Shown here one piece after another: positions 4,723-10,185 of a stretch of 64,000 nucleotides of DNA (position 1 is the first letter of the stretch; every line of letters begins with the position of its first letter). Below the pieces are notes generated by a model that saw only the letters and a program-made list of their open reading frames with translations, was not told where the DNA came from and did no database searches. A program made the position numbers and the translations under genes. Source of the DNA: Nitrospirales bacterium (GTDB lineage Bacteria > Nitrospirota > Nitrospiria > Nitrospirales > UBA8639); the NCBI GenBank assembly GCA_022828225.1, contig JAJEJG010000013.1, positions 62,001-126,000 of the forward strand, read 5' to 3'.

Positions 4723-4748
4723 CTCTCTACACGCGGGAAATGATTTTA

Positions 4749-4894
4749 GGAACCTCTGATTTCTTGTGATAGCGGGATGGAGGGCAAGGCGTCCCAGAGC
4801 GAAACCCGAGGCTTATCATAGATAGAGATAGGTGAGGGTTGAGCGAGGACACAACGCAGCCATACGCCCGATAGTGCAATAAAGCAGAGGTTCC
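4749..4894 (+). mobile_element. 146-bp MITE, copy 1, with TTTA target duplication
   Basis: The ends are imperfect inverted repeats of about 28 bp that begin GGAACCTCTG. The element is flanked on both sides by TTTA (4745-4748 and 4895-4898). A second copy, about 90 % identical by eye, lies at 48689-48830 with its own duplication, TAAA. There is no coding capacity, so it would depend on a transposase supplied elsewhere. The right end is only 15 nt from the mature 5' end of tRNA-His. The parent transposon family cannot be named from the sequence alone. Confidence 0.85.
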
Positions 4895-4909
4895 TTTACT
4901 CGTTGGATG

Positions 4910-4986
4910 GTGGGTGTAGCTCAGTTGGTTAGAGCGCCGGATTGTGGATCCGGAGGTCGCGGGTTCAATTCCCGTCACTCACCCCA
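4910..4986 (+). tRNA. tRNA-His (GTG anticodon)
   Basis: Full cloverleaf. The acceptor stem is GTGGGTG/CACTCAC with one G-T pair, the D arm is GCTCAGTTGGTTAGAGC, the anticodon loop is TTGTGGA between CCGGA and TCCGG, and the T arm has TTCAATT. The 3' CCA is encoded. Discriminator C73 faces a G at 4909, which would supply the extra G-1 that marks tRNA-His. Confidence 0.97.
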
Positions 4987-5106
4987 CTCTATTAAACCAG
5001 TCCAGTGCGTGAGAAGTCTGAACCTCCTCCGATCCTGTCTATGTCTCTGGATTTGCAAAAGTCCAGGTTAACCCCTCGATACCGTTAAATAATCCTTGAA
5101 GAGACT

Positions 5107-5982
5107 ATGATGAGCCAGTCATCGCGGATCGGTTTAAAATTCCCACAGCAATGTGGAAATGACATCCAATGTTATAGAAGGGTTATTAACGACTACCGTA
5201 AATCGATTGCCATGACAGACCAGGATGTCCTTTTCGATTGTAGGGAAATCGATTTTATTCGACCCTTGGGAGTTAATATCCTTGCTCTTTTAATCCGAAG
5301 TTTGTTGCAACAGACTTCAAGAAAGATCTTCTTTACACATCCCAGTGATCGTGCCTGCAGGAAATATTTCGAGGATCAAGGTTTTTACAAAGAATTTCGC
5401 ATTCAAGATAATGTCATCAAGGCCGTCCCTCGAAGCACTAGCGTGGGACTTCGCAGAATCGAATCGTTTGAACCCTTGTATCTCGAAGAGATTGCTGAGT
5501 GGTTAAATCGAAATTCGTTGTTGCCGGATCAGGTCATTAAAGATGCCGTCAAAATTACGCTTTCAGAGATCATCAACAATGTAATAGATCATAGCCGATC
5601 CTCTATAGGTTGCTATATCAGTGCTCAAGCGTATCCTAATGAGAACCGATTAATATTCTCAGTTGCCGATCTTGGGGTAGGGTTTCTTGAAACTCTTCGT
5701 CCTGAATATAACGATTTGAGTAAAAATGAAGAGGCAATTGCATTGGCAGTACAATCAGGGGTATCATCGAAGTCCAGGGGTGGAAATGCCGGGGCTGGCC
5801 TTGATATTCTTTGCGATTTTCTCAAACATTGTTCCGGGCACTTAGAAATCATTTCTATTGATGGTGTATGGCGTCAGAATCCTGATGGAACCTCGTCAAC
5901 TGATACAATTCCCTTTTCCTTTCCCGGCTCCTGCATTAACATTGAATTTGATAATCAAAAAATTATGAATATTTCATTATGA
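5107..5982 (+). CDS. STAS-like plus GHKL ATPase signalling protein
   Basis: Predicted cytosolic regulator of 291 aa. Residues 1-110 look like a STAS-like fold, with a beta strand, FDCREIDFIRPLGVN and then a helix. Residues 125-290 carry a GHKL (histidine-kinase-like) ATP-binding module: N-box SEIINNVIDHS, G1 box DLGVGF, and a G2-type box in GGNAGAGLDIL. There is no phosphoacceptor H-box and no membrane segment, so it resembles anti-sigma or switch kinases more than a sensor kinase. Its stop overlaps the next ATG by 4 bp. Codon use is markedly AT-richer than in the flanking genes, suggesting acquisition. Substrate and partner are unknown; the downstream STAS-like protein is the obvious candidate. 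Confidence 0.75.
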   Translation: MMSQSSRIGLKFPQQCGNDIQCYRRVINDYRKSIAMTDQDVLFDCREIDFIRPLGVNILALLIRSLLQQTSRKIFFTHPSDRACRKYFEDQGFYKEFRIQDNVIKAVPRSTSVGLRRIESFEPLYLEEIAEWLNRNSLLPDQVIKDAVKITLSEIINNVIDHSRSSIGCYISAQAYPNENRLIFSVADLGVGFLETLRPEYNDLSKNEEAIALAVQSGVSSKSRGGNAGAGLDILCDFLKHCSGHLEIISIDGVWRQNPDGTSSTDTIPFSFPGSCINIEFDNQKIMNISL

Positions 5983-6290
5983 TGAAAAAGTTAATCGTCA
6001 AAGACGTTGTTGGTCCCTATTGTGGGACGTATGAGGATGGAGCCAAACTGTATCGTGTGCTCTATGGTCTCCTCAAAGATTCCCAACAAGTCGAGTTAGA
6101 CTTTGACGGGATTGAATTAACTTCTTCTTCGTTTTTCAATGGAGCCATCGTTAACCTTTTGCAAGAATTTACTGGCAAGGACGGACAACTGCCTCTTTCT
6201 TTTTGTAATTTAACGCTACGGGATAAATTTATTTTAGCCCGCACCTTGAAAGCCGCAAAGCATATGTCCGAAGTGGTCGTCGAAGCTTAA
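5979..6290 (+). CDS. STAS-like domain protein (DUF4325 type), coupled to the ATPase
   Basis: A 103-aa single-domain protein. It shows the pattern of the STAS-like DUF4325 family: an N-terminal strand (KLIVKDVVG), a helix, then a central LDFDGIELTSSSFFNGAIVN segment in which the strand-turn-helix with SSSFFNGA replaces the phosphorylatable turn of classical STAS proteins, and a C-terminal helix. The ATG overlaps the ATPase stop (ATGA), implying translational coupling and a fixed stoichiometry. By analogy with anti-sigma/antagonist pairs it may be the target of the upstream ATPase; that is inference. AT-rich like its partner. Confidence 0.72.
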   Translation: MMKKLIVKDVVGPYCGTYEDGAKLYRVLYGLLKDSQQVELDFDGIELTSSSFFNGAIVNLLQEFTGKDGQLPLSFCNLTLRDKFILARTLKAAKHMSEVVVEA

Positions 6291-6337
6291 AGCATTTACC
6301 TCTTTGGTTCTACCACTCTGTCTCTCTTTTTCATTCT

Positions 6338-6497
6338 GAACATAAGCTGTTGACGGTGGCCAAGCTTCATGGGGTAAGTGCGCAACCGGTCTACGCGTGG
6401 CGTAAGCGCTACGGGGCTAGAGGTGGAAGACGTGCGCTGGTTGCGGGAATTGAAGTATGAGAATGGACGGTTAAAGAAGACGAAATTTCCTGGATAA
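6338..6497 (+). pseudogene. Remnant of an IS3-family OrfA transposase
   Basis: One frame reads VAKLHGVSAQPVYAWRKRYG up to a TAG at 6418-6420. After a one-base shift the next frame reads LEVEDVRWLRELKYENGRLKK and stops at TAA 6495-6497. Joined, these match the helix-turn-helix and leucine-zipper part of IS3-type OrfA. The start, OrfB and clear inverted repeats are absent, so only a degraded fragment remains. It marks past mobile-element activity in this patch. Confidence 0.7.
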
Positions 6498-6502
6498 GGG
6501 GA

Positions 6503-7159
6503 TCATTTTTCTTTGTATTTACAGGCAATTTCATTGACCCGAAGATAGTCGGCAATAAATAAATCCATCAACTGTGACACGCCAGTCAAAATAAATGCGT
6601 TATTGGTATGGGTTCCTGTTAACGATCTTTGCCAAGTTGTAGCCGTCCCATGGCGCATAGAGATGGTATCGTCAAAAAGTCTTTTGTTGAGTGCAACCTT
6701 TATAGAAAATGCATTCCCGGCAACTGTCACAACAACATGCAAAAATGGGGCAAAGCTTTTATCGGTATAGATTCGAGCGGCCCGCAATCGCGACTCGACG
6801 GCAGCCAAAATGGATTGTTTGGTCAGCCCAATTCGGTTCGCATCATGGGAAAGTTCCTCAACAATAATGGCAACAGGCTCACAATTCAGATAGAGCTCGA
6901 AATAGTCTATGCCAAACTGGTCACGTTCTTCAGGTGTCATAGACCTTATTTTGTTCAAGTGCTCTCCAAGGAATTTAATTGATTTTTCGGAAAGATTTTC
7001 CTCAAAGGTTTCTTTAAGGTCTTCATCGGAAAATGCCTTAAGACCTTCACGGGTAGGCTTCTCCTCTTCGGCCCACACCACGGGGAGATTTAAGGTGGAA
7101 GCCATGAGCAGGGTAAGACCCCATAAGACAAGAGCACCTAAGTCATTGAACATCTTCAT
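6503..7159 (-). CDS. Secreted protein of unknown function
   Basis: A 218-aa protein with a clear Sec signal peptide: positive start, a hydrophobic stretch of about residues 8-28, and a VVWAEE cleavage region. The mature part is acidic and mainly helical up to residue 100 (SDEDLKETFEENLSEKSIKFLGE), then has a strand-rich segment (FLHVVVTVAG, FSIKVALNKRLFDD) and ends LFIADYLRVNEIACKYKEK. No domain is recognised. It is AT-rich, lies opposite in direction to its neighbours, and sits next to a transposase remnant, so it is probably acquired. It is likely periplasmic. Confidence 0.65.
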   Translation of the reverse strand: MKMFNDLGALVLWGLTLLMASTLNLPVVWAEEEKPTREGLKAFSDEDLKETFEENLSEKSIKFLGEHLNKIRSMTPEERDQFGIDYFELYLNCEPVAIIVEELSHDANRIGLTKQSILAAVESRLRAARIYTDKSFAPFLHVVVTVAGNAFSIKVALNKRLFDDTISMRHGTATTWQRSLTGTHTNNAFILTGVSQLMDLFIADYLRVNEIACKYKEK

Positions 7160-7275
7160 GTTTCATCCTCCAGTAATGGCAAATTTTCCTCATAAACAGG
7201 AAAGGCTTGTTTCATATTACGAATAGTTCTTGATTGATCTGGCCAGGCAACGGTTGACTGGAAAGGAAAGATCTT

Positions 7276-7821
7276 GTGGGTGGTCGCAAGCAAATTCAGA
7301 AAGCATACGAAAAGGCCGTCGTGCAACAGTTTGCTCAATTCCGTCTTCAGTCGCGGGCTGAGAACTGGCATATTGTACAAGACCACGAGGACCCGCCTGA
7401 TGGACTCTTAAAAAGAAATGATAAACACCTATGGCTCGAAGTAGTGGATGTTTACCACAATTCTGACGAAGCTCATGAAGAACGATCAGCGGTTACACCC
7501 GGTGAAAAGCGGTATTATCATACACCTCAACCATGCTTTTCCAGAGACCCTATAGATTTTATGGCTCAGAGGGTTTTTGAGGAAGTAAAAAAGAAAATGC
7601 AGAAGATAGGATATGCTCGACTGAAAGACACTTACGGGCCTGGTGTTCTAATCTGCTGCGAAAGAGACCCACTGTTTGATTCGTCTATAGACCTCGAATT
7701 CACTTTAGAGAAATTTCGCACGAGCGGTCAGGATTTTCATGACCTAAATGAAAAGGTATTTCAAGAAATTTACCTTTTTGAGCAGAACAGTAAATTTCAT
7801 AAGCTCTTTCCATTGCAATAA
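7276..7821 (+). CDS. Unknown protein, weak restriction-endonuclease-fold resemblance
   Basis: A 181-aa cytosolic protein that starts at a GTG without a strong ribosome-binding site. An N-terminal helix (QKAYEKAVVQQFAQF) is followed by PPDGLLKRNDKHLWLEVVDVY. The spacing of PD, then about ten residues, then a hydrophobic strand with E is reminiscent of PD-(D/E)xK nucleases, but the catalytic Lys is not in the usual place (EVV rather than ExK). The C-terminal half has GPGVLICCERDPLFDSS. Composition is AT-rich as in the rest of the patch. Function is not assignable; the nuclease idea is weak. Confidence 0.6.
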   Translation: MGGRKQIQKAYEKAVVQQFAQFRLQSRAENWHIVQDHEDPPDGLLKRNDKHLWLEVVDVYHNSDEAHEERSAVTPGEKRYYHTPQPCFSRDPIDFMAQRVFEEVKKKMQKIGYARLKDTYGPGVLICCERDPLFDSSIDLEFTLEKFRTSGQDFHDLNEKVFQEIYLFEQNSKFHKLFPLQ

Positions 7822-7929
7822 CAACCGCAGTGGTTCTTGGTAATGGACGGAATCAGGAACCGGAAATCCGGGAAAAGGCCAGTTTTTCATGTTGCCCGGG
7901 ATTGCGAGGTTGAGCATTGTTCCTCTGCA

Positions 7930-10185
7930 ATGTGGTGGTGTGAACCGAAAAGTTGGTCAGCCGTGAGACTGTCTCGTTCATGGGTTCGTCTTGGGACCCT
8001 CCTTTTTGTTGTTCTCTTGACGGGTGTCTGTTCATTGTCAGAGGCCGAGACCCGGGAGGTGGACTGCAAATCGGCGGAAGCCTGTTTTCAACGCGCCGCG
8101 TCGTTTGCCGATGAGCAGCCCGATCAAGTGGGTTTGCTGGTCGAACGGTTTCGCCACGTGCAGGAGGCGTATCCGGGAACCCTCTGGGCCCGGCGTGCCG
8201 GGTTTCGCATAGGATGGGCTCTGCTCGAACGTGAACCGGGCCGGGCTATTGAGTACCTCCATGAGGCTCGCAAGGATTTCCCGGTCATCGAAGATTACGT
8301 CTTGTTGAAACTCGGTCAGGCCTTGGGGCGTGTGGGTTCCTTGCGTGAATCCGCCCTGGCGTTTGAAGCGGCGTTGGAATCGTCCGTTTCTTCGGCCTTG
8401 CGCGACAAAATGTCATATGAGGCGGGGTTTGCCTGGTTCGAGACCGGGCAATGCCGGCCTGCCATCGCGCATCTTGAGCAAGCCACTGCCCGTGATCCGG
8501 ATTCTCCGTCCGCTCCCCGAGCGTTGTCCCTTCTTGCCGATTGCGCCGGTCGTTTGCAGCAAGTGAACTTGGCGCAGCACGCGCTGGGCGAGCTTTGGCG
8601 AAGGCATCCCGAATCTCCCGAAGCCCAAGCCATGGAGCGAGCCGCGCAGTCCGGTCAGCCGGATTCACGGCCTTGGGACCCCTCTTTGGAAGATTATTAT
8701 GAACGAGGCCAGACGTGGTATGCCTCGGCACGTTTTGAAGCCGCGATTCGGGATTTGCAGAAGTTCTTGGCGGGCCGACCGGACGATTTAAATTACGAGC
8801 AGGGACTCTTTCGGTTGGGGATGGCCCACGTGCGGTTGAAGCAGTATCCCCAAGCCGCGCAAGTGTTCCGCCGGTTGTTGGAGAACCCTTCCGACTATAC
8901 CGGGAAAGCCGCCGTGTGGTTGGCCAAGGTGTATTTGCGACGGGACCAGGGCGGGCGTCTTCTGAAGTTTCGCGATTCGGCCCCTTCCGGCCTAAGCCTG
9001 GATGAACAGGCCAAGATCCACTGGCTGAGCGGCGTGTGGGCCGAAGGGGAACGTGCGATTCAGCAAGCCGAGCGGGCTTATGAGGAGGCCTATCGTACGG
9101 CGGATCGTTCCGGAATCAAGAGAGACGCGTTGTGGCGGTTGGGATGGCTCCACTATCAACAAGGCGTTTGGGAAAACGCGGTTGAAGCCTTTGACTCGCT
9201 CTCGGAGATCGGTCCCGGCCGGCATTGGCAAAACCGGGCGCACTATTGGAAAGCACGGTCGCTTGAACGCATGGGCCGGGTCGATGAGGCGCAAACGGTG
9301 TTTGGGCTGGTGGCTGCCGAGTGGCCAATGACCTATTATGGGCAACTGTCCGAGTCGCGCCTGCGACATCCGCGTCCCACGGGACGCCAACCGCGTGAGA
9401 ACCGGACGAGTCCGGTGATGAACGGTCCCGCATCATCCGCGTTCCGTATCAACACGCATTTCCAAAAGGCCACGGAACTGTCGAAGTTGGGATTTCGCCG
9501 GGAAGCACTAAAAGAATTGATGGTGGTGAAGGAGCAATATCGCGATCAGCCGCAAACCTTGTATGCCCTGGCGCGGCATATGCTTGAACTCGGAGATTTT
9601 AAAGCACCGATCGTCATCGCCAAACGGTACTTTCGGGAACCGTTGGCGCGTCGCGGGATTTCGCTTGATTCCCCGTTATGGCGCATGGCGTATCCGACGG
9701 GATACATGCCGCAGATTCGACGCTATGCGGCTCCGCACGTGCCTCCCTTGTTGGTGGCGGGGATCATCCGTGAGGAAAGTTTGTATAATCCCGAGGCCTT
9801 GTCATCCGTCGGTGCCATGGGGCTGATGCAATTGATGCCGGAAACCGCGAACCGTATCGCACGCCGCTTGGGCCTTGCCCTCGTGGACCGGCAGGATTTG
9901 TTGCAAGGCGATGTGAACGTGCGGTTGGGGGTGGACTACGTGGGGCAATTGTTACGTGATTATCAGGGGAATCTCATACGTGCCGTCGCCGCGTATAATG
10001 CCGGCCCCGCTGCCGTGAAACGATGGATTGCCAAGTTCGGCAACCGCGATCCGGACGAATTCGTGGAGCTGATTTCCTATAGAGAAACCCGTCGGTACGT
10101 GAAGCGTGTTCTTACAAGTTATCGTATCTATCGGGCCCTCTATTCCACAACATGTAGTGCTATTCCTCTTGACAGGGCCTGCTAA
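7930..10185 (+). CDS. slt: Soluble lytic murein transglycosylase (Slt70-type)
   Basis: Periplasmic enzyme that cleaves peptidoglycan between MurNAc and GlcNAc, forming 1,6-anhydro ends. A long N-terminal region of TPR-like helical hairpins (about residues 60-560) precedes a C-terminal SLT domain with the REES catalytic Glu, GAMGLMQLMPETA and AAYNAGP signatures. The start is uncertain: ATG 7843, ATG 7930 and GTG 7963 are all in frame and none has a strong ribosome-binding site. GTG 7963 gives the most normal signal peptide (RLSRSWVRLGTLLFVVLL); 7930 is a compromise. It returns to chromosomal GC content, marking the right edge of the accessory patch. Confidence 0.9.
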   Translation: MWWCEPKSWSAVRLSRSWVRLGTLLFVVLLTGVCSLSEAETREVDCKSAEACFQRAASFADEQPDQVGLLVERFRHVQEAYPGTLWARRAGFRIGWALLEREPGRAIEYLHEARKDFPVIEDYVLLKLGQALGRVGSLRESALAFEAALESSVSSALRDKMSYEAGFAWFETGQCRPAIAHLEQATARDPDSPSAPRALSLLADCAGRLQQVNLAQHALGELWRRHPESPEAQAMERAAQSGQPDSRPWDPSLEDYYERGQTWYASARFEAAIRDLQKFLAGRPDDLNYEQGLFRLGMAHVRLKQYPQAAQVFRRLLENPSDYTGKAAVWLAKVYLRRDQGGRLLKFRDSAPSGLSLDEQAKIHWLSGVWAEGERAIQQAERAYEEAYRTADRSGIKRDALWRLGWLHYQQGVWENAVEAFDSLSEIGPGRHWQNRAHYWKARSLERMGRVDEAQTVFGLVAAEWPMTYYGQLSESRLRHPRPTGRQPRENRTSPVMNGPASSAFRINTHFQKATELSKLGFRREALKELMVVKEQYRDQPQTLYALARHMLELGDFKAPIVIAKRYFREPLARRGISLDSPLWRMAYPTGYMPQIRRYAAPHVPPLLVAGIIREESLYNPEALSSVGAMGLMQLMPETANRIARRLGLALVDRQDLLQGDVNVRLGVDYVGQLLRDYQGNLIRAVAAYNAGPAAVKRWIAKFGNRDPDEFVELISYRETRRYVKRVLTSYRIYRALYSTTCSAIPLDRAC

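Follow-up and report, generated by a model that had tools for sequence, protein, structure and literature searches.

An apparently mobile gene pair for a predicted STAS-GHKL kinase and a STAS protein of the CapK/VapK kind, widespread in bacteria and present in a Nitrospirales genome

Introduction

The nearest characterised relatives of the gene pair described here are CapK/CapS and VapK/VapS/VapC, two DNA-damage-sensing immune switches reported in EMBO J in June 2026 (PMC13373217). CapK, a STAS-GHKL kinase, becomes active with ssDNA, and its phosphorylation target in CapS is the serine equivalent to the predicted acceptor of the pair described here. VapS, the antitoxin of VapC, requires its tail for blocking the toxin and loses its activity when it carries a phosphomimetic. 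Protection against a phage by VapKSC depends on F54 of VapK. Both systems were described with a built-in output, either promoter binding or a toxin (PMC13373217).

We analysed two adjacent genes, here called K and S (together KS), in a stretch of 64,000 nucleotides from a Nitrospirales bacterium (contig JAJEJG010000013.1, positions 62,001 to 126,000), which we refer to as the window. The pair is a real, widespread and apparently mobile two-gene module of the CapK/VapK kind.

Results and discussion

Architecture of the two genes

An earlier note on this DNA had described a STAS-like plus GHKL protein lacking an H-box that overlaps a single-domain STAS-like protein by 4 bp, an arrangement that the open reading frames, Pfam and AF2 models confirm (Table 1). 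In the AF2 model of K (pLDDT 88, pTM 0.89), the N-terminal part forms a domain of b-a-b-a-b-a order, and the domain after it is GHKL-like. Pfam HATPase_c matches residues 147-256 at 1.6e-5, slightly below the curated cutoff, and the phage family PHROG_3364 matches K over nearly its full length at 5e-39. The best single-domain structural match of the model is to SpoIIAB chains (TM 0.66 by target length); SpoIIAB is a serine kinase of a STAS protein. K also has a weak match to RsbW. Pfam returned no HisKA match in K, which we therefore take to lack an H-box. Since neither a HisKA or H-box match in K nor a response regulator adjoining KS in the neighbourhoods read was found, it is scarcely credible that K is a sensor histidine kinase with S as an accessory STAS protein, even though phage and plasmid records carry the annotation 'sensor histidine kinase'. 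A PADLOC match of K to DrmA (3.3e-7) was discarded, as it covers the GHKL part only of a 1750-position profile.

Table 1. Features of the KS locus and its immediate surroundings, in window positions
Feature	Position	Strand	Size or evidence
MITE-like repeat, high copy, with imperfect inverted repeats at its ends, directly outside the module	about 4745-4896	.	
tRNA-His, left border of the variable tRNA-His/slt interval	4910-4986	+	
Gene K, STAS-like N-terminal half and GHKL ATPase/kinase domain	5107-5982	+	291 aa open reading frame
K N-terminal STAS-like domain, aa 7-97	5125-5397	+	AF2 b-a-b-a-b-a order; alignment with E. coli VapK
K GHKL domain, aa 112-282	5440-5952	+	N-box E154xxxN158xxxHS, G1 box D188xGxG, G2 box G229xG231
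ATGA, 4-bp overlap of K stop and S start	5979-5982	+	sequence
Gene S, single-domain STAS-like protein (DUF4325)	5979-6290	+	103 aa; Pfam and VapS match
Codon of S Ser50, predicted phospho-acceptor	6126-6128	+	aligned with VapS Ser48
Frameshifted orfA remnant, presumably IS3-type	about 6340-6490	+	

S belongs to the Pfam family DUF4325 (PF14213), with 38.9 bits against a curated cutoff of 23. Its model (pLDDT 90) shows a STAS core followed by a single helix, after which the protein ends. Foldseek gave weak matches only, some of them to SLC26 transporters, which carry STAS domains, and the family assignment of S therefore rests on sequence. The only convincing solved sequence relative is the Escherichia VapS structure (9z7o_A, E=5.5e-9), on which Ser50 of S falls on Ser48. 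The aligned position is Ser or Thr in 47 of 52 S proteins from KS pairs and in all seven S proteins linked to a PIN gene, and the remaining five KS proteins have neither residue there. On the kinase side, E154, N158, H162, D188, G190, G192, G229 and G231 of K are invariant across 49 KS and seven PIN-linked kinases. Residue conservation thus supports both catalysis by K and the predicted acceptor in S, and the shared ATGA would couple the translation of the two genes.

Comparison with VapKSC and CapKS

We found the E. coli vapKSC locus through back-translated VapS. The operon was present in two E. coli genomes out of 5,426 searched; at locus L157 (4100-5959) it adjoins phage tail genes. Residues 23-279 of K align with E. 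coli VapK at 27% identity (E=1.6e-18). Like VapKSC, the window pair has an HTH-free STAS-GHKL kinase followed by a small STAS gene, and Ser50 provides a Ser/Thr acceptor equivalent to VapS S48. The E. coli VapK gene has an in-frame ATG five codons 5' of its annotated start, so that its F49 would correspond to the F54 of PMC13373217. K F50 (codon 5254-5256) aligns with this F49, in a column that is Phe or Trp in 39 of the 49 KS kinases. Since STAS domain cores often have Phe in this position, the aligned aromatic is weak evidence for ssDNA sensing by K.

VapKSC and the window pair differ in three respects: the lack of a VapC or PIN gene, the lack of an S tail that could block VapC, and the position of the kinase outside the VapK clade. 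No PIN/VapC gene was found in the window. Relatives in which S is followed by a PIN gene are the Streptococcus loci L004, L102, L109, L112 and L115 and, by weaker matches, the Nitrospirota loci L030 and L031. In a kinase tree built by a quick method, with some long branches, no known root and no CapK, the PIN-linked kinases group with E. coli VapK and one phage kinase in a single clade (support 99), and the window K and all other KS kinases lie outside it. CapK is absent from the tree because E. coli VapK, used to search plasmids and phages, retrieved no CapK sequence. Past the aligned core, S proteins linked to PIN genes extend by 19-25 residues, compared with 4-13 in most KS pairs and 10 in the window; longer tails occur among KS pairs at L002, L039, L069 and L108. 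The PIN-type kinases also have Ala/Met where the window K has Pro53/Gly55. A toxin-antitoxin operon that lost VapC and left an orphan pair might have been expected from VapS being the closest sequence relative of S, and from the apparent vapKSC loci in relatives G005 and G044. Clade separation and the shorter tail indicate that the window pair is no mere remnant of a vapKSC operon, and K and S are both intact with invariant catalytic residues. We therefore rejected this reading on tree and tail length, and consider it largely refuted and very improbable.

The likeness to CapKS lies in a two-protein logic, a STAS-GHKL kinase acting with a STAS substrate that has a conserved serine. Unlike CapK, K has no N-terminal HTH, its STAS-like fold beginning at residue 7; unlike CapS, S has no C-terminal wHTH, since only one helix follows the STAS core. 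No immune operon lies directly downstream of KS in the window.

SpoIIAB/SpoIIAA and RsbW/RsbV likewise combine a GHKL kinase fold without an H-box with a STAS partner. If KS were a classical anti-sigma switch, K would be the anti-sigma factor and S its antagonist, with an unlinked sigma factor and PP2C phosphatase. The structural match of K to SpoIIAB and the weak RsbW match agree with this, and the window genome encodes PP2C/SpoIIE proteins that could in principle dephosphorylate S. However, sequence similarity to these systems is weak, the fused STAS half of K is foreign to RsbW and SpoIIAB, and S is much nearer to VapS than to any SpoIIAA-type structure. As the earlier note had described, the pair resembles a partner switch stripped of its sigma factor and phosphatase, neither of which is linked to KS in any neighbourhood read, the window included. 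An RsbW-like gene already lies beside a SpoIIE-type phosphatase on another contig of the same genome, and a mobile pair of this type would depend on every new host having a compatible sigma factor. The missing linkage and the existing set elsewhere in the genome make the classical role less likely, and we regard it as improbable.

The outcome that the earlier note had set against itself, a homologue search leading to a well-characterised anti-sigma system, did not occur, as no homologue proved to be such a system. Its suggestion of an undescribed system holds insofar as KS matches no characterised anti-sigma operon; it does not hold in full, because the pair is of the same kind as CapKS and VapKSC. 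A KS-only system was not described in the literature searched, which left out many subscription papers and all bioRxiv preprints.

Distribution of the pair

We scanned 84,980 species, each represented by a single genome, with one kinase motif, using Nitrospirota and Streptococcus relatives as seeds. This gave at least 59 loci, at least 51 of them with a K of the window architecture (L066-L116), numbers that describe the sample, since they derive from a single motif and from at most 80 candidates. Among the matches listed, S follows K directly in 49 of the 51 loci with this architecture, and the other two end at a contig edge. Carriers of the pair belong to at least five bacterial phyla (Nitrospirota, Pseudomonadota, Bacillota, Bacteroidota and Thermodesulfobacteriota) and include prophages. 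The two genes overlap in 33 of 50 pairs measured, most commonly by 7 bp. In a search of relatives from the DUF4325 side, about 18 of 24 places had a GHKL partner next to or fused with the DUF4325 protein by our own tally; a K-like protein without a recognised S occurs at L006 and L032. Such adjacency, kept across phyla, is more than chance would give, and homologues proved to be almost always neighbours where the earlier note had allowed that they might rarely be. Natural K-S fusions, together with the constant adjacency, support a functional link between the two proteins.

Phages also carry the pair, as seen in Streptococcus prophages and Marinitoga phage MPV1, and in temperate phages it adjoins integrase or lysis genes. 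A Francisella phage encodes a 293-aa protein beside a DUF4325 protein, probably a further KS pair. A scan of viral contigs gave no matches with the window protein and 14 loci, mostly near-identical, with a Streptococcus phage protein. S matches PHROG_9989, and PHROG_5816 is matched by both K and S, as in the fused form; like PHROG_3364, these are phage families of unknown function, and the likeness to them informs on distribution only.

Genomic location and neighbours

The GC content falls to about 0.40-0.46 across positions 5000-7850, compared with about 0.59 on either side, and the tRNA-His, the MITE and the transposase remnant that the earlier note placed beside the AT-rich pair were all located. 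All 51 loci tested have flanks that are less AT-rich than the KS DNA (mean difference -0.109), and KS is the segment with the highest AT content in 42 of 53, with control segments scattering by 0.037. Copies of the MITE-like repeat (~150 bp), about 88-95% identical, are numerous in the window genome and throughout the genus. Downstream of S lie the orfA remnant, which we assigned to the IS3 family by its motif, and then an opposite-strand gene.

The interval between tRNA-His and slt (window 4987-7930; L145-L156) is a variable site in the genus. It measures about 70-90 bp in G003, G004, G005 and G010, contains an unrelated 328-aa ORF in G011 and an 887-896-aa ORF in G001 and G012, and retains a remnant of that ORF in G013. 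In G006 it lacks KS and holds the two genes that lie downstream of KS in the window. These genes (6503-7159, 218 aa; 7276-7821, 181 aa) adjoin slt in G006. The 181-aa protein has no Pfam match and hits PHROG_23471 at 5.9e-7; it contains a PPD...LEV-like motif that we take to be suggestive of a PD-(D/E)XK nuclease. KS pairs occupy three different places, in G001/G011, in G013 and in the window. The empty or differently filled sites in congeners, the AT-richness and the constant gene order bear out the earlier view of mobile, coupled genes. The 3' end of the tRNA-His was not found a second time within the window, and tRNA-guided integration is therefore not claimed.

The Nitrospirota KS genes show no clear shared upstream motif, and no conserved third gene was found beside KS among 137 genes flanking 36 loci. 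In this set every Pfam family occurs in four genes or fewer, Glu/Gln-tRNA synthetases being the commonest, and defence genes are few and not clearly enriched among mostly housekeeping flanks. The pair follows glnS (L076, L081, L089) or gltX (L100) on the same strand.

These neighbourhoods bear on whether KS might be a self-contained defence or toxin-antitoxin unit, in which K or S would be an effector blocking phage or cell growth with no unlinked regulatory target. AT-richness, mobility, presence in temperate phages next to genes for integrase or lysis, and a two-gene form without a conserved partner would all suit such a unit, and the related VapKSC protects against a phage (PMC13373217). 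Against this, K and S have no known effector domain, few defence genes flank the pairs, and the same housekeeping gene, glnS, recurs beside KS in some lineages, which suggests stable residence. We consider such a unit unlikely, if worth keeping in mind. The earlier proposal of a mobile signalling or defence module thus stands as to mobility, while a defence role is unproven given the mostly housekeeping flanks.

Proposed function

The reading that we favour, with a probability of roughly one half, is that KS is a mobile stand-alone kinase/substrate switch that acts on an unlinked target and possibly senses damage. K would act as a Ser/Thr protein kinase of the GHKL type, with its fused STAS-like half in the role of sensor or regulator, and S would bind K as its dedicated STAS substrate. 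By analogy with the described systems, K may phosphorylate Ser50 in response to a trigger, perhaps ssDNA, which activates CapK, or some other sign of DNA damage or infection, and the phosphorylated residue would alter the binding of S. We infer that the most likely target of S is an unlinked host protein, since S has no VapC-blocking tail, no DNA-binding domain and no linked third gene; the pair may have some part in stress or defence. The pair would spread horizontally as a minimal two-gene cassette, temperate phages included.

We also propose, far more tentatively, that KS is a further widespread kinase/STAS branch, a minimal DNA-damage sensor of phages and bacteria with one conserved unlinked host target, and that prophage pairs may pass a damage signal to the choice between lysis and lysogeny.

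A kinase/substrate core related to these systems thus occurs widely, forms its own deep groups and carries no output, which predicts an undiscovered target. KS offers a simple pair for testing kinase, trigger and target, and a testable role for phage protein families whose function is now unknown.

Variant arrangements

Single-protein GHKL-DUF4325 fusions (L033-L038, L041, L005) are common in Nitrospirota relatives and also occur on a Nostoc plasmid; such proteins may be a cis-acting equivalent of the KS pair. Loci L117-L124 encode single HTH-GHKL proteins, another architecture. Genome G040, of the same order, has five short DUF4325 proteins (L054, L060, L063, L064, L065), with no recognised GHKL gene in the fetched flanks. 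In Paenibacillus and Brevibacillus, two consecutive S-like genes follow K (L071, 8792-9625; L096, 8787 onward), which suggests duplicated substrates.
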